From assembly GCA_030531305.1 (NCBI GenBank), contig JAUNNT010000007.1, positions 1-45,615 of the forward strand: a stretch of 45,615 bases of DNA, written 5' to 3'. The notes under the pieces were generated by a model, which saw nothing but the letters and a program-made list of their open reading frames with translations, did no database searches and was not told where the DNA came from. Shown piece by piece: positions 32,949 to 40,584 of the stretch (its first letter is position 1; each line of letters starts with the position of its first letter). The position numbers were made by a program, and so were the translations under genes. The DNA is from Akkermansia sp. Lineage in GTDB: Bacteria; Verrucomicrobiota; Verrucomicrobiia; Verrucomicrobiales; Akkermansiaceae.

Positions 32949-33149
32949 GCTCTATCCCACCACGCTGCCAATGAAAAGTCATGTCAGTGGCTTGATGAGA
33001 GTCCATTGAAACACCTTCGACGCTAATACACACCATCATACAACCGCCACATTAAAATCATACTTGAAAACACACAAAACAATACCCAGGCCGTAGATAA
33101 CTGATTGCAACGCATAAACCATGCCGAATAGACCCCATTCGCCACATAT

Positions 33150-33165
33150 GTCTATTATACTAATC
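33150..33165. promoter_or_regulatory. Operator-like half-palindrome upstream of the first HpaII-type enzyme
   Basis: Shares the exact 15-mer ATGTCTATTATACTA (33148-33162) with the palindrome at 34434. It covers a TATACT -10-like box but there is no good -35 box, which would fit activator-dependent expression. Confidence 0.5.
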
Positions 33166-33192
33166 TATACATTTAGAGCGAATTGTTGTAAC

Positions 33193-34359
33193 ATGAAAAA
33201 CAATATGAAAAAACAAAGTAATAAATCCAAACAGTACAATAGAGGAGAGTGGGGCGAGTCCTATGCATTAAGCTGCATTTTAAGAGATCGGAGCATTCCT
33301 CTTTGCAACCACAAACTTGATGTAACAAACACTCAAATCCCTATTATATCAGTCCAATTTAAAACAGGAACTAAACATTTTACATACATTTTTGACGAAA
33401 AACGTCAAGGATGGAAATTGAAAAATAATGAAAATAAACGATTTACTCGATTATCCATCAAACAAGCATCGTCCATTTCCTCAACTCTTGAACAGGCCCT
33501 ACGAACGTCAAGTTATAAATTCGACAATAAATTTATTAACCTAATTAAAAAAATCGGCTTGTATCCCAATTCAAAAGCCTCACAAACAAAAACAGATATC
33601 CTCCTAAAGATACACGATATTAAATGTGGGTACGATGTTGAATTGGGATACAGCATAAAATCATTCATAGGGAGCAACCCTCCGACCCTGTTCAATGCGA
33701 GTGGAAAGAATACTGTTTACAAATTCAAAGTTACAGGAATAAGACTACCCAAGTTTAAGCAAATTATGGACAAAGCTCTAGAAATGCACAATGACAAGAA
33801 TGTAAACGACTGGTTTGTCCAAACTGTCAAATTGCTCATTGTCAATAAGGGATATTTTGATCCAATATATGATTCTCCAGAAACATTATCATTTAACTTG
33901 GAGTATATAGATTTAAAAATGCAAAAAATTCTGTCTAATCTTATACGCATACACAATACAGAGCGAGTATCTTCCGTTGAGGATGCTGTTGAAATCCTTA
34001 AATCTTCTAACCCATTAAGATTACAAAATATCAACTTATATGAGTATAAAGTTAAAAAATTTTTAGTTGCTTCTGCATTTGGAATGACTGCGGCAAAACA
34101 ATGGGATGGGACTGAACAGGCAAATGGTGGGTTTATTATAGTCACTCCTGAATATCGTTTACTCATGTATCAGCCGTATAACCGAAACAACTTAGAAAAC
34201 TACTTATATAAAGCATGCAAATTTGATAGACCTAAGATGAACAGCAAAAGCAATACGGGGCTGCACATTGAGGGAAGGAACAAAATAATAGACTTTGCAT
34301 TTCAAATTAGATTTAAATCTTTTGCTGCAATCAAAAAATCTTTACAAACACTACCTTGA
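33193..34359 (+). CDS. HpaII-family type II restriction endonuclease, AT-rich copy
   Basis: About 388 residues. It shares with the protein at 35828-36955 and with the HpaII family the motifs GYSIKS(F)xGS, LFNASG, YKVKKFLVASAFGMT, GGFIIVTP and the C-terminal KFDRP ... FAFQIRF. HpaII cuts CCGG; the same target is inferred. The frame is open back to 33121. I chose ATG 33193 because the family N-terminus is short (GEWGESYALSCIL aligns with GEWSEVYAFFHLM of the second copy); ATG 33205 is also possible. The gene is strikingly AT-rich, about one third G+C by eye, unlike everything to its left, and was surely acquired separately. The methyltransferase starts 127 bases downstream. Confidence 0.82.
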   Translation: MKNNMKKQSNKSKQYNRGEWGESYALSCILRDRSIPLCNHKLDVTNTQIPIISVQFKTGTKHFTYIFDEKRQGWKLKNNENKRFTRLSIKQASSISSTLEQALRTSSYKFDNKFINLIKKIGLYPNSKASQTKTDILLKIHDIKCGYDVELGYSIKSFIGSNPPTLFNASGKNTVYKFKVTGIRLPKFKQIMDKALEMHNDKNVNDWFVQTVKLLIVNKGYFDPIYDSPETLSFNLEYIDLKMQKILSNLIRIHNTERVSSVEDAVEILKSSNPLRLQNINLYEYKVKKFLVASAFGMTAAKQWDGTEQANGGFIIVTPEYRLLMYQPYNRNNLENYLYKACKFDRPKMNSKSNTGLHIEGRNKIIDFAFQIRFKSFAAIKKSLQTLP

Positions 34360-34433
34360 GCATTTCTTGAGTAGCGCTGAATCACCAAGTACCATGCTAC
34401 GTTATACGGCTTGTGTGCATCGTTAGCGCGCAT

Positions 34434-34481
34434 GTCTATTATACTAGACTTCTCAAACCAAAGATGTCGAGTATAATCAAC
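34434..34481 (+). promoter_or_regulatory. Twin operators and promoter of the HTH-methyltransferase gene
   Basis: Operator 1, 34434-34449: GTCTATTATACTAGAC, palindromic except one pair. Operator 2, 34466-34481: GTCGAGTATAATCAAC, an imperfect match with the same TATA centre. Centres are 32 bases apart, about three helical turns. Promoter TTCTCA (34450-34455), 16 bases, TATAAT (34472-34477); operator 2 covers the -10 box. The layout resembles the C-boxes of restriction-modification controllers. The rest of 34360-34433 shows nothing. Confidence 0.6.
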
Positions 34482-34486
34482 ATGCC

Positions 34487-35815
34487 ATGAACGATGCAGA
34501 TATACTTCCCAGGCTAGGTGCGGCACTTCGTCAGATGCGACTTGAAGCTGGTTTTAGCCAAGAACAACTGGCTAAAGTAAGTGGCGTAGCCCGCTCTTTC
34601 ATCATTAATGTGGAAAGAGGCGATACCAATCTTTCAATCGTCAACCTCGCGAACATCACTAATGCCATGGGCGTGGATCTTGCCACTTTCATGGGCAACC
34701 TTGACAAAACTTCCCCCATTGATGCGGGTGGAAGTGCAGATGGTGTCGCAGGGGAGCTCGTCAGGGAGGGCATTGTACGCGATTTGTTCGTGGACGAGGA
34801 GCAAGGCGCGCCCCAATACGGCGAACTGCGCTCCATTGACCTTTTCGCGGGCATCGGCGGCATCCGCATGGGATTCGACCAGGCGTTCGGCAAAAACATC
34901 AACACCGTGTTTGTGTCGGAATGGGACTCCTTCGCGCAGAAGACCTATGCAACAAACTTCCCCAGCATTCACCCCATCAACGGCGATATCACCAAGATTG
35001 ACGAGAAGGACGTTCCCGATTTCGACATCTGCCTGGCTGGCTTCCCCTGTCAGGCATTCAGCCTTGCCGGCCAACGCAAGGGCTTTGACGACGACTACAA
35101 GGGCATGTCGCGCGGCACGTTGTTCTTCGATGTGGCGCGCATTTGCTCGCACCACAAGCCCAAGGTGATTTTCTGCGAGAACGTCAAGGGGCTCACTATC
35201 CACGACAAGGGCAAGACGTTCAAGATTATCACCGGCACGCTCGAACAGATGGGCTACAAGGTGTTCCACAAGGTTCTCAACTCGAAAGATTTTGGCGTGC
35301 CCCAAAACCGCGAGCGCATCTACATCGTGGCGTTCCGCAACGATATCGCGCCCGACAATTTCAACTTCCCGCGTCCCACAGGCAAGAAGGTGTGCATCCG
35401 CGACATCATGGAAGAAAAGCCGGTCCCCGCGAAGTACTACCTCAGCACGCAGTACATGGACACGCTGCGCCGACACAAGGAAAGGCACGCCGCCAAGGGC
35501 AACGGCTTCGGCTACGAAATCCGCGAGCTGGACAGCATTGCGGGCGCCATCGTGTGCGGCGGCATGGGCCGTGAGAGAAATCTCATCATCGACAAGCGAC
35601 AGAAAGATCTCAAGCCCACCACGCATATCAAGGGAGAAGTGAACCGCGAGGGCATCCGCAAAATGACACCCCGCGAATGGGCGCGTCTCCAGGGCTTTCC
35701 GGACTCTTTCAAACTTCCCCTTTCCGATGTCCACCTCTACAAGCAATTCGGCAACAGCGTGACGGTCCCCGTCATCCGCGCCATTGCAGAACAAATCAAA
35801 AAAGTCATTCTTTAA
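34487..35815 (+). CDS. XRE helix-turn-helix fused to DNA cytosine-C5 methyltransferase
   Basis: 442 residues. Residues about 5-65 are an XRE/lambda-repressor HTH (LRQMRLEAGFSQEQLAKVSGV, RSFIINVERGDTNLS), the fold of controller proteins. Residues about 105-440 are a complete C5-methyltransferase: motif I DLFAGIGGIRMG, IV GFPCQAFSLAG with the catalytic Cys, VI ENVKGL, VIII QNRERIY, target region near RNLIIDK, IX ARLQGFP and X QFGNSVTVP. It would protect the site cut by the HpaII-type enzymes; CCGG is inferred. ATG 34487 lies 9 bases after the -10 box; ATG 34482 is not in frame. The second restriction gene follows after 12 bases. Confidence 0.93.
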   Translation: MNDADILPRLGAALRQMRLEAGFSQEQLAKVSGVARSFIINVERGDTNLSIVNLANITNAMGVDLATFMGNLDKTSPIDAGGSADGVAGELVREGIVRDLFVDEEQGAPQYGELRSIDLFAGIGGIRMGFDQAFGKNINTVFVSEWDSFAQKTYATNFPSIHPINGDITKIDEKDVPDFDICLAGFPCQAFSLAGQRKGFDDDYKGMSRGTLFFDVARICSHHKPKVIFCENVKGLTIHDKGKTFKIITGTLEQMGYKVFHKVLNSKDFGVPQNRERIYIVAFRNDIAPDNFNFPRPTGKKVCIRDIMEEKPVPAKYYLSTQYMDTLRRHKERHAAKGNGFGYEIRELDSIAGAIVCGGMGRERNLIIDKRQKDLKPTTHIKGEVNREGIRKMTPREWARLQGFPDSFKLPLSDVHLYKQFGNSVTVPVIRAIAEQIKKVIL

Positions 35816-35827
35816 CACCACAGTACC

Positions 35828-36955
35828 ATGCCAGAACAACTACTCACAGGCAACGTTGGGGAATGGAGCGAGGTTTACGCCTTCTTCCATTTGATGGGGA
35901 CGAACGAGCTTGTTCCCTGCGATAGTAACCTTCAATCACTACCCGACAACCATCTCCCAGTCATTGCCATCTATCGTGGTGAAGGACCAAACGGGAAGAT
36001 TGCATACGTCTACAAAGATGAAAACGGCGGGACATGGGAAATCTACCTCAATGACCTGGTGTGTGGCTCTGTGCCTGCAGCGGATGGTAAAGCGGAAGCC
36101 ACTTTCCTTCTGGAAGCATTGCTTGCTTCTATCCGACAACAGAAGAAAAACAACCTGCAATTCCCCAAAGCGCAAAAGTTCCTCGAACGCCTTTGTGACT
36201 GCCGCTTGAAAGCCAAGGCCACAGATAAGGAGGACATAGCCTTGCGCATCCAAGACATCCGCGCTGGACAGGCCGTAACATGCGGCTTCAGCATCAAGTC
36301 ATATCTCGGCTCGGAACCCACGCTGCTCAACGCCAGCGGCGACGGCACTAACATTCTGTACCGCATAGACAACATTACATCTGACCAAGTCAAAGAAGTT
36401 GAGGCAGCCGTTGAAGCCGACCCGAGACACAAACTGCAGGTCCTCATGCGGGAGCTTCGCGCACAAGGGGCTACCTTCACCTGTTGCGGTCTGCTCAATC
36501 CACAATTTGAAAAGAACCTACTCTTCATAGACACAGCAATGCCCCTCCTCATTGGAGAATTGATGCTGATGCACTACTGTTCCAACGAGAAGAGTGTGAG
36601 TCTTGTTACTGAACTGGTTGCAGAAAATGATCCTCTCCGGTTCGGAGACAAGGAGCTATACCGCTACAAGGTGAAGAAATTCTTGGAAGCGGTTGCCCTC
36701 GGCATGACGCCCAGCGCCAAAAATTGGAACGGAGCTGAAGATGCCACAGGCGGCTTCCTCATCGTCAAGCCAGACGGCGAACTCGTCACCTACCATCTCT
36801 ACAACAGGCAGGCTCTCGACGAGTATCTGCTCCTCTACACCAAGTTTGAGCGTCCATCCACCTCAAGGCACAAATACGGCTTCCTCTACACAGAAGAAGA
36901 CGGCCACCTCTACCTGAAACTCGCCCTGCAAGTGAGGTTCTGCAAAGCTGGCTAA
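35828..36955 (+). CDS. Second HpaII-family type II restriction endonuclease
   Basis: 375 residues, near the length of HpaII. Motifs GFSIKSYLGSEPTLLNASG, YRYKVKKFLEAVALGMTP, GGFLIVKPDGELVTYHLYN and KFERP ... LALQVRF match the copy at 33193-34359, but overall identity is low, so these are old paralogues or independent acquisitions rather than a recent duplication. Base composition is intermediate and close to the methyltransferase. Start ATG 35828 is 12 bases after the methyltransferase stop, an operon arrangement with the methylase made first. Probably the cognate enzyme of that methylase; cleavage of CCGG is inferred. Confidence 0.88.
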   Translation: MPEQLLTGNVGEWSEVYAFFHLMGTNELVPCDSNLQSLPDNHLPVIAIYRGEGPNGKIAYVYKDENGGTWEIYLNDLVCGSVPAADGKAEATFLLEALLASIRQQKKNNLQFPKAQKFLERLCDCRLKAKATDKEDIALRIQDIRAGQAVTCGFSIKSYLGSEPTLLNASGDGTNILYRIDNITSDQVKEVEAAVEADPRHKLQVLMRELRAQGATFTCCGLLNPQFEKNLLFIDTAMPLLIGELMLMHYCSNEKSVSLVTELVAENDPLRFGDKELYRYKVKKFLEAVALGMTPSAKNWNGAEDATGGFLIVKPDGELVTYHLYNRQALDEYLLLYTKFERPSTSRHKYGFLYTEEDGHLYLKLALQVRFCKAG

Positions 36956-36986
36956 GCAAGCAAAACGAACAACCAACTGACCCTTC

Positions 36987-39900
36987 ATGAGCAACACAGA
37001 TATCGCCATAGAAGATGTCCACAGCACCGATCTCGACAGATGGGCAGACCGAACAGAAGCCAGAGACGAGCTCCCAGAAATTATAAAAAGGCTTATCTAT
37101 TCTGCTGGAGACCAAATAAAGGAGTTAGACGTTCATTCACGAGAAGACAACCATGTGCCAGGGTGGGACGGCGAAGTAGACAACACAGCTAAGCACAACC
37201 ATATTCCACTAGGAAAATCATACTGGGAAATAGGAACGAACAAAAACGCGCAACAGAAAGCAAACAGTGACTATAACAAAAGAACTAAAAGCACGGATAT
37301 TGTAATTCGACAGAAATCAACATATGTATTTGTTACACCAAGGCTATGGGAGAAAAAGGAAGAATGGGTAAGAGAAAAACAGAATAAGAACGACTGGAAT
37401 GCAGTTAAAGTTATCGATCGAAGAGAACTCGTAGACTGGATAAATCAAGAACCAATCGTCAAACTTAATTTCTTAAAAAAATACCTGCGAATTGAAATAG
37501 AAGGTGTATCCGACTTAGAATCTAAGTGGTCTATGTGGAGTAATTCCACAACAACAGGAATGCCAAGATATTTATTTAATGCAGAAATAGAAAAACACAA
37601 ACTAAAATTCAAAAAATGGCTTGCAAGCAAACCTGAAAAGACCTTTGTAATTTCTGCAGATTCTGAGCTCGAGGGAGTTGCATTTGCGAAATGCCTACTT
37701 GATTTAAAAGATTTATACTCTTATAGATTAAATAGCATATTTTTTGCGAAGGAAGAATCAATCTCATCATTTGTACTCGGCAAGCGAAATTGTATAGCAA
37801 TTGTTGCCAATTCTGATTTGGCAGATGTATGCTTTGCAAATGGTTGCTCCCACATAGTACAAATAATTACGAGGGGAATGCCTGTAGATCATATAGATAT
37901 TTCGCTAGGTCTACTGGATTATCATAGCGTGAGGTTATTTGCGAGCGAGAACAAGGGAAAGAATATAGAAGTAATTGCGAGAAACTGCGGCTATAGCAGG
38001 ACCCTTATAAGGCAAGAATTAAGCAAATCTGCAAAAGCGCCTAAATGGATCGCTAGTGATTGTAATATACAAATAGTCAAAATTCTTAGCTTCCTTGGAT
38101 GCATCGGTACCAATGAAGAGAATTTAGAACAGGCGGTAATTGACTTAAGCTTAGGTGAGTTTAAGAAATATGCAGATTTCCAAAAAGCTTTTGCAAATCT
38201 TTTGCAGTTGGATGAAACACCTGTCTGGTCCTGCAAATGCGGAGTATCTCCAAAAGGCGTATGTAGATATATTGGCGTGCAATCACCTATGAACTCCATA
38301 AAATTTGCACACATTGAAATTGACAAGGAATTTATAGAGAGGTTGGATGTAATAACAAAGCGAGCATTCATTACAGAAAGTAATAAATACTCTGATAGTA
38401 CGCGAAGACACTTACTCAATGCGCTACTAATTTGCTCTGAATATGGTCTTATATGGGAACTATCTGGATATGAAAAACTAATTGCACTTTGCAAAAATTT
38501 AACTACAGATGTACTCGAGAACTGCAAAAACAATTGTTCTTTGACTAAAAATACACAATATTTCAGCTATTTTGCGGAACTCTCACCCGATTTATTTATT
38601 GAGTTTATTGAGCAAAATGATTTATCAAACGATATAAATTCAGCATTAGCGGATGCAATTCACATACTAGGGAAAGCTCCTGCTTATTTAAAGAGGATTA
38701 TATTGCTTCTTGGAAAATGGCACAAGAATTGCAACGACGAAGAAACGCAGGATCGTCTAGAAGAAATAGCCAATGCGTTCCTTAGTTGCGCCATACCTCA
38801 AACCAATGCAGATTTCTCTCAACGCCTCGACTGTCTAAATGCTCTAGCAGATATTTGTCCTGATCTCTGTTGGGAGGTTTGCATCAAGCAGTTCTTTGGT
38901 GGTTCAGCTGTAGCCATTGTTTATCCAGGAGCTCTTTATAGAACAAGGGAGTTCTCATGCCACCGTTCTGGCCCGCCATCTGCGGAGGAGATATTCAAAT
39001 ACCAGCAAGCTGCGCTTGGGCACATGCTGAAACTATGTACAGGAGTTGCAGAACGCACACTTAAGGTAATCAATATTATACCCGTTACAAGGAACGAACT
39101 TCATGCAGATATATGGAAGCGTGTAAGTCAGAACTTCGCTTTATTTGAAAAAGCTGATCAAGGAAGAATATGCGGAGAGTGTTTAGATGTGTTAGACAGC
39201 CTGCTTAACATCTATAAAAATAATGAAGCATATCAAACTGGTTTGCGGTTCTTTCAAACCATAACATCTGATAATATATTTTTAAGAAATATTGACCTAT
39301 TTTATATAGATTATACAAACAACGATCACGACTTAACACACATCAAAAATTTAATAATTGAGTGTTTTCAAAACAGCATAAACATCTTTGAATATATCAA
39401 AAAAATAGATAAAATTGACATGTATTCTTTGGGGTGCGTATTCTCCGAGTTTGAAGATTTTAATTTTGACGATTTTTTTAAATCATGGATAAAATGCAGT
39501 GATGCGCCCGTGCAGCACTTATTTAGATTTTCTCGTGGTTATATTTCAAATTATGCTGAAAGATCTTGCATAAAGTTTTTAGAAAACATCTTCCCTCTGC
39601 TATCTATAGAACAACAAGCTGCGTTTGCTCTTTGCTTCAATCGCTCGGCATTGATGTTTTCATTTATAGAAAATCACGGCACCGAACTGTGTAAGATTTA
39701 CTGGGGAAAAATCGATTATTTGAAACTTGATAAGTTTGATGTAGACGAGATTAATGCCCTATCATATTGCATAAAAAATCACAGGGAGGATTTAGCGTTA
39801 AGGTCAGTATTGTATTCATACAAAAAAGTACCAATGCGACTTTTAAAAATCATCTTATGTCTATATGCAAGGTCTTCTTGGTGCGATGGGTCAGGATGTT

Positions 39901-40577
39901 ACGACTCGGATATTGCGCGACTTGTAGAATACTTGTGTGCAAATAATGAATTGAATCTATTAGGTTGTGCAGACATTGAGTACAGAGTTGGCCTTCTTAT
40001 TCACGGCTCTCGATACCCATATATATCAGAGTATTTTGCTTTACACCCGAAACATTTTGCTCGTGTTATAAATTTTCTCAACACCGAAAGCAAAAAATTG
40101 ACCGAGAATCAACTGAAAATCAAACATTTAACACGTTTGCATCTGTTGTTTGAGAGGTTATCCATTCCCTTATTTTGCAAACAAATGAGCTCATGGTGTG
40201 CAGATGTATACCGACTTTCCAAATCAGCAAGAAAGGATGTAGACTATTGCATCGGAAATATTTTAGTAGCAGGCCCAGCTACCAAGATTAGCAATTGGAT
40301 GAACACTGATATTTGCAATTGCATCGAAAAATACTACACTCAAAACTTGGCATCTGGATTTTTTATCGCAATATCTAACTCGCTTGGCTGCACATCACGT
40401 CCCATAGATGCTGGTGGGATTCATGAACATAATTTAGTTGATTATTTGTCTGATTTTATCAACACTAAACTTGCCTCTTTTCCAAGAACTGGTGAAGTTT
40501 TGTCCTCTTACGTAGACTCGCTAAAATCTCAGGCAAATGATGAAGACAATTCTGCTATACTTATGAAGCGCGCTTAA
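36987..40577 (+). CDS. Large AT-rich protein with nuclease-like N-terminus and degenerate NTPase-like region (1196 aa)
   Basis: Not a family I can name. Residues about 15-170 look like a PD-(D/E)xK nuclease: PGWDGEV (Asp61), SYWEIGTN (Glu81), then KANSDYNKR (Lys91) and a beta-strand STYVFVTPRLW. Residues about 200-355 resemble a STAND-type NTPase without its P-loop: KTFVISADSELEGVAFAKCL stands where Walker A would be, and ARNCGYSRTLIRQEL followed by APKWI resembles a recurrent motif of large bacterial defence-island proteins. Residues 380-1196 are helical, Cys-rich and repeat-like without clear periodicity. Composition is markedly AT-rich. It lies 31 bases after the second restriction gene and 7 bases before vsr. 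Candidate abortive-infection or restriction effector; inference only. Confidence 0.8.
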   Translation: MSNTDIAIEDVHSTDLDRWADRTEARDELPEIIKRLIYSAGDQIKELDVHSREDNHVPGWDGEVDNTAKHNHIPLGKSYWEIGTNKNAQQKANSDYNKRTKSTDIVIRQKSTYVFVTPRLWEKKEEWVREKQNKNDWNAVKVIDRRELVDWINQEPIVKLNFLKKYLRIEIEGVSDLESKWSMWSNSTTTGMPRYLFNAEIEKHKLKFKKWLASKPEKTFVISADSELEGVAFAKCLLDLKDLYSYRLNSIFFAKEESISSFVLGKRNCIAIVANSDLADVCFANGCSHIVQIITRGMPVDHIDISLGLLDYHSVRLFASENKGKNIEVIARNCGYSRTLIRQELSKSAKAPKWIASDCNIQIVKILSFLGCIGTNEENLEQAVIDLSLGEFKKYADFQKAFANLLQLDETPVWSCKCGVSPKGVCRYIGVQSPMNSIKFAHIEIDKEFIERLDVITKRAFITESNKYSDSTRRHLLNALLICSEYGLIWELSGYEKLIALCKNLTTDVLENCKNNCSLTKNTQYFSYFAELSPDLFIEFIEQNDLSNDINSALADAIHILGKAPAYLKRIILLLGKWHKNCNDEETQDRLEEIANAFLSCAIPQTNADFSQRLDCLNALADICPDLCWEVCIKQFFGGSAVAIVYPGALYRTREFSCHRSGPPSAEEIFKYQQAALGHMLKLCTGVAERTLKVINIIPVTRNELHADIWKRVSQNFALFEKADQGRICGECLDVLDSLLNIYKNNEAYQTGLRFFQTITSDNIFLRNIDLFYIDYTNNDHDLTHIKNLIIECFQNSINIFEYIKKIDKIDMYSLGCVFSEFEDFNFDDFFKSWIKCSDAPVQHLFRFSRGYISNYAERSCIKFLENIFPLLSIEQQAAFALCFNRSALMFSFIENHGTELCKIYWGKIDYLKLDKFDVDEINALSYCIKNHREDLALRSVLYSYKKVPMRLLKIILCLYARSSWCDGSGCYDSDIARLVEYLCANNELNLLGCADIEYRVGLLIHGSRYPYISEYFALHPKHFARVINFLNTESKKLTENQLKIKHLTRLHLLFERLSIPLFCKQMSSWCADVYRLSKSARKDVDYCIGNILVAGPATKISNWMNTDICNCIEKYYTQNLASGFFIAISNSLGCTSRPIDAGGIHEHNLVDYLSDFINTKLASFPRTGEVLSSYVDSLKSQANDEDNSAILMKRA

Positions 40578-40584
40578 CGAAGTG

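Follow-up and report, generated by a model that had tools for sequence, protein, structure and literature searches.

A C5 methylase with a fused restriction-controller domain and predicted operators at two promoters of an Akkermansia HpaII-type locus

A C5 methylase of an Akkermansia-like gut bacterium carries in its first ~70 residues a DNA-binding domain that, on homology, belongs to the C-protein (restriction controller) family, and the palindromes at its own promoter and ahead of a neighbouring endonuclease gene are predicted with high confidence to be the operators of this domain. The fusion, the three sites, the conservation of these sites and their tie to one helix-turn-helix (HTH) clade are observed; their arrangement makes it probable that a single protein protects the genome and at the same time determines the amount of the DNA-cutting enzymes. 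The locus lies in a stretch of 45,615 nucleotides (the window) from a 2.3 Mb, 93%-complete assembly of 109 contigs. Its features are listed below; M is the methylase gene, R1 and R2 are endonuclease genes and G569 is a genome of the same genus.

32978–34431, no strand: stretch missing from G569 (leader and R1), ending exactly before the second 15-mer copy
33150–33165, + strand: predicted R1 operator, GTCTATTATACTAATC; left half-site intact, right half degenerate; PWM score 16.5 (control maximum 8.9)
33166–33194, + strand: putative R1 promoter, weak; −35 TATACA (33166–33171), spacing 17, −10 TAACAT (33189–33194), from consensus and spacing only
33205–34359, + strand: R1, HpaII-family endonuclease (PF09561, 2.7e-62), 34% GC; start 33205 preferred over 33121 and 33193
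34434–34449, + strand: op1, GTCTATTATACTAGAC; 7/8 positions pair; centre ~42 bp upstream of the inferred M transcript start
34450–34477, + strand: M-R2 promoter; weak −35 TTCTCA (34450–34455; 4/6), spacing 16, −10 TATAAT (34472–34477)
34466–34481, − strand: op2, GTTGATTATACTCGAC; spans the −10 box; centre 32 bp from that of op1
34487–35815, + strand: M, C5 methylase with fused controller domain; 442 aa, catalytic part at residues 115–439
34526–34687, + strand: XRE/C-protein domain of M, residues 14–67
35828–36955, + strand: R2, HpaII-family endonuclease (PF09561, 1e-88), starting 12 nt past M
36987–40577: gene for a 1196-aa protein, 37% GC, after R2 in the defence cargo slot

A C5 methylase here adjoins endonucleases of the RE_HpaII family, as in HpaII-type restriction–modification (R-M) systems, and the recognition sequence would, going by the family, be CCGG. 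All three genes lie on the + strand, and the locus is not an SsoII-like divergent methylase/endonuclease pair with one shared intergenic operator. M and R2 presumably form a single operon, in which case R2 shares the control of the methylase promoter. The GC content of R1 (34%) compares with 56% in the catalytic part of the methylase and 52% in R2. Twin HpaII-family endonuclease genes recur in other genomes (L006, L024, L057 (beside one methylase) and G156), and the window is not unique in having them. The 1196-aa protein has no match in Pfam, PADLOC or NCBIfam. The interval 32978–40583 is a defence hotspot with the same flanks in different genomes (an ankyrin gene on the left, 40584 onward on the right; L191, L192). 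Its cargo is R1-M-R2 and the 1196-aa protein in the window, M-R2 with Thoeris-like ThsA-macro and ThsB-TIR genes in G569, and different in G189, where it includes DNA-methylase-like genes.

The preliminary description of this DNA had read an XRE helix-turn-helix at the N-terminus of the methylase, and Pfam places HTH_3 at residues 14–67 (E 7e-12), ahead of the C5-methylase domain at 115–439 (E 5e-101). Compared with solved structures, residues 1–74 match C.BclI (7.8e-13), C.AhdI (3.9e-10) and the R-M controller 3clc (2.5e-6), which we take to be C.Esp1396I, with other XRE proteins ranking below; a profile from six relatives raises these matches to 9e-19, 3e-15 and 1e-13. Membership of the HipB/antitoxin group was rejected, NCBIfam couple_hipB scoring under its cut-off. 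The domain is not a free small polypeptide, as a C protein is, but part of a 442-aa methylase; its closest relatives are free-standing. In the wider family, free XRE genes of ~80 aa lie directly 5′ of C5 methylase genes, and in G032 and G050 the gene order is C-M-R, with R of the HpaII type and upstream DNA that resembles classical C boxes (TATAGTCCGTGGACTAATAGTC in G050). Because relatives carry free controller genes directly before methylases, the joining of such a gene to its neighbour would be a natural origin of the fusion. Two XRE-fused C5 methylases of another type (L213 and L214, in G011 and G019) have C-box-like upstream sequence (TCATAGTCnGTC...ATAGT) and are possible independent C-methylase fusions. 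Viral contigs yielded no confirmed relative for either the HTH segment or R1.

A 15-mer (ATGTCTATTATACTA) said to be common to the R1 upstream region and the methylase promoter is indeed present in exact copies at 33148–33162 and 34432–34446; at up to two mismatches these are its sole sites in the assembly, a further copy being possible in the missing part of these 93%-complete, 109-contig data. The near-perfect palindrome described at the methylase promoter (op1) and the second one centred 32 bases away on the −10 box (op2) likewise hold at their positions, while the R1 site pairs at 5/8 positions, its right half-site being degenerate. Four such matches occur in the window, where dinucleotide-preserving shuffles of the window give an expectation of 0.03. 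The motif consensus, GTnnATTATAsTnnAC, is not a classical C box. CCGG is absent from both promoter regions, so that, judged by sequence, the methylase promoter is overlapped by a palindromic operator of its own that is distinct from the putative methylation site. A genome-wide scan, proposed earlier as a check, found the 16-mer not to be common: a single additional site lies within two mismatches (C41:35628), about the chance expectation, and the ORFs tested near it had no Pfam match. A general regulon of the 16-mer was ruled out on this count. Across the phylum, matches were scattered and not above a reversed control pattern, the nearest (G100) falling within a coding region.

The same M-R2 operon occupies the same chromosomal site in G569, between the same flanks (89.6% and 90.5% identity), with R1 missing. 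R2 is 97% identical and the methylase 90% overall, its catalytic part being nearly identical and its N-terminal 112 residues 64% identical. Op1 of G569 (GTCCAATATACTGGAC) differs from that of the window at positions 4, 13 and 6; since positions 4 and 13 are pairing partners, the palindrome is retained through a compensatory change of its arms. Op2 of G569 lies within CGAATGTTGactataatCAACATTCG, where perfectly paired arms of nine bases flank the −10 region, and the centres of the two sites are 33 bp apart (32 bp in the window), whereas the intervening DNA has diverged. An N-terminal identity of only 64% between two M alleles with nearly identical catalytic domains (window 34487–34822, 112 residues, against L160) suggests fast evolution or domain swapping of the controller part.

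The two sites at the window methylase promoter and their two G569 counterparts gave a PWM, which was scanned over 110-nt upstream regions of other XRE genes, with 217 upstream regions as controls (maximum 8.9). Among the free-standing relatives, the closest four reached 19.0 (G171), 10.7 (G191), 9.7 (G574) and 9.7 (G177), and two more close relatives, found later by alignment search when the PWM was already fixed, scored 12.4 (G553) and 17.7 (G565). All six thus exceed every control; G574 and G177 are near-copies, leaving about five independent confirmations, each at p < 1/217. In the 110 nt upstream of more distant XRE genes the scores are at control level, as they are for three of the four Akkermansia HTH-fused HpaII methylases L003–L006; the fourth, L005, reaches 7.9, a value as high in 3/217 controls. 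The promoters of L003–L006 are canonical. It is this pattern, in which the motif is conserved in the G569 locus and in the six closest free-standing relatives and absent from distant XRE genes, that makes the sites very probable operators of the fused domain. Together with the C-protein homology, it gives good support to the original proposal, that a controller is fused to the methylase and that both promoters hold matching operators.

The partners of the free-standing controllers are of two kinds: a MunI-type R-M system in G574 and its near-copy G177, and a Schlafen group 3 helicase protein in G171 and G191; on inspection of the sequence only, the partner genes in G553 and G565 resemble Schlafen group 3 helicase genes. 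At L205, L206, L221 and L222 a free C-like XRE gene directly precedes that for a Schlafen group 3 helicase (confirmed by Pfam in L205 and L206), and the same operator motif lies ~58 bp ahead of the inferred start of transcription. The Schlafen-linked XRE protein may thus control a defence gene outside R-M.

Homology between the window and G569 ends at 32977 and restarts exactly at 34432, where the second 15-mer begins, and these breakpoints leave the R1 gene bracketed by the 15-mer. In the endonuclease tree R1 forms a very long branch within the Akkermansia clade, with every fully invariant residue retained. To the left of the first 15-mer copy, the sequence bears a weak resemblance to that flanking op1 on the same side in G569 (p ~0.05). 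The R1 operator may have been made by duplication of op1 at the insertion, which would account for the exact identity over 15 bases and would also place R1 under the same regulator. These very features leave a sizeable minority chance that, with the methylase sites as true operators, the R1 copy is a mere 15-bp duplication scar without regulatory role: homology with the R1-less allele resumes precisely at the second 15-mer, the right half-site is lost just past the 15 copied bases, and the left flank keeps its weak likeness to that of the G569 site. A scar and a function are, however, compatible, the PWM score of the copy is still well above all controls, and a plausible R1 promoter has the site at −43, the position that it takes at other promoters. 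This promoter had been described as lacking a −35 box; there is no good one, but with ATG 33205 as the start, which lines up by eye with that of a related endonuclease in L164, a weak TATACA can be placed, and the −35 of the methylase is also weak. We regard functional control of R1 by the fused controller, whether by activation or by repression, as moderately probable.

With transcription starts inferred from −10 hexamers, the site centre falls at −42/−43 in five promoters (M of the window and of G569, both MunI controllers, and R1 with ATG 33205) and at about −58/−59 in the four Schlafen-linked loci. The −35 box is poor in M of the window (4/6, spacing 16) and of G569 (3/6), though TTCTCA at spacing 16 could serve as one; in the Akkermansia fused methylases without the motif, a perfect TTGACA is followed by TATACT at spacing 17. 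Not every member needs activation, since a good −35 (CTGACA) is present in the MunI-linked promoters. In both the window and G569, the DNA alone presents the two-operator arrangement of C proteins, in which OL precedes the core promoter and OR overlaps it. A weak −35, op1 at ~−42, which is a classical activator position, and op2 over the −10 box make activation followed by repression, in the C-protein manner, at least as likely as pure autorepression.

Under the model that we favour, with some reserve, as a whole (fused controller, op1 activation, op2 repression and R1 capture, of which binding, direction and timing are deduced), dimers of the fused domain would bind op1, op2 and the R1 site. 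Low basal transcription would yield some methylase; occupation of op1 would then boost the methylase-R2 operon, and occupation of op2 at higher methylase levels would shut it down. The methylase level, and hence the protection of the genome, would in this way set R2 expression. R1, a later insertion, would have joined the same control via its op1 copy, most likely being activated from about −43. A point against this model is the risk that an activator-dependent methylase would bring on entry to a new cell, unless both endonucleases were more dependent still on the activator.

The activator-plus-repressor mode at the methylase promoter is, taken by itself, reasonably likely. It is unlikely, by our estimate, that the protein is a pure repressor in the manner of M.SsoII or EcoRII, binding both methylase sites cooperatively (32 bp, about three helical turns) solely to repress its own operon, with R1 repressed or affected indirectly. 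Known regulatory methylases do repress their own genes, op2 spans the −10 box and op2 of G569 is the most perfect palindrome; yet op1 lies upstream of the core promoter at an activator position, as it does in unfused relatives, and the −35 boxes are weak. The autorepression originally proposed for the methylase accordingly keeps the backing of op2, while as the sole mode of control it is disfavoured by the weak −35 and the site near −42. That the palindromes are no operators but chance or generic promoter sequence is highly improbable: the motif core, ATTATA, reads as a −10 hexamer in reverse and the real −10 lies within op2, but chance was rejected on genome-wide counts and conservation, with genome uniqueness, the compensatory change in G569 and 6/6 closest XRE promoters above 217 controls all against it.

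More tentatively, the methylase may be an autogenous activator-repressor switch in which the level of protection feeds directly into endonuclease expression, a second endonuclease having been captured when it inserted at the activating operator and duplicated it, and in which an operator code common to sister controllers of unrelated defence genes (MunI R-M and a Schlafen-type helicase) makes cross-talk possible. If the model is true, a C-protein domain on the methylase and an operator pair let the protecting enzyme directly gate both endonucleases. Free controllers before methylases, the fused controller, and R1-bearing and R1-less alleles of one chromosomal site form a series in which the evolution of this wiring can be tested.

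By its architecture the locus belongs with the HTH-fused regulatory C5 methylases, of which M.SsoII, M.Ecl18kI, M.EcoRII, M.MspI, M.ScrFIA and M1.LlaJI are established as repressing their own genes (PMC3695355, PMC3874152, PMC12707154); by 2014 the Pfam count of proteins that combine an HTH with a C5 methylase stood at 68 (PMC3978073). No description of such a locus in Akkermansia was found in the open-licence literature. The locus shares with the regulatory methyltransferases the N-terminal HTH and, in the promoter of the methylase itself, a palindromic operator other than the methylation site (PMC3695355, PMC3874152). The N-terminus of SsoII has been termed highly similar to C proteins (PMC6100179). 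As described, SsoII and Ecl18kI use a single 15-bp site between divergent genes to repress the methylase gene, whereas the window combines a pair of sites arranged as for activator plus repressor with a tandem M-R2 order and, ahead of another endonuclease gene, a third site. A plasmid C5 methylase (L245), considered for comparison as a candidate of the SsoII type, could not be assigned to that type. The fused methylases of G011 and G019, of the same family, have the same domain order as possible C-M fusions, but differ in a methylase of ~42% identity, another operator type and an unrelated downstream gene.

In the cited papers, regulatory methylases repress their own gene, and activating controllers are separate proteins or endonuclease fusions. 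Active C-endonuclease fusions are known, and CR.NsoJS138I and its relatives likewise hold the controller inside an enzyme of the system, with both activities, the partner being the endonuclease there and the methylase here (PMC3850674). C.Kpn2I is a C protein that also acts at a methylase promoter, but it is free and represses that promoter, through a site within its own coding region (PMC6237814). With C.BclI, C.AhdI, C.Esp1396I and C.PvuII the fused domain shares a homologous DNA-binding domain and an operator pair, one site upstream of the −35 region and one on the promoter (compare PMC3695507); it differs in being fused to a methylase where they are free proteins of ~80 aa, and in its motif GTnnATTATAsTnnAC and centre spacing of 32–33 bp in place of the classical C box. 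The predicted operator layout, at about −42 and over the −10 box, resembles the activator/repressor pair of the C proteins more closely than the single repressor site of M.SsoII.
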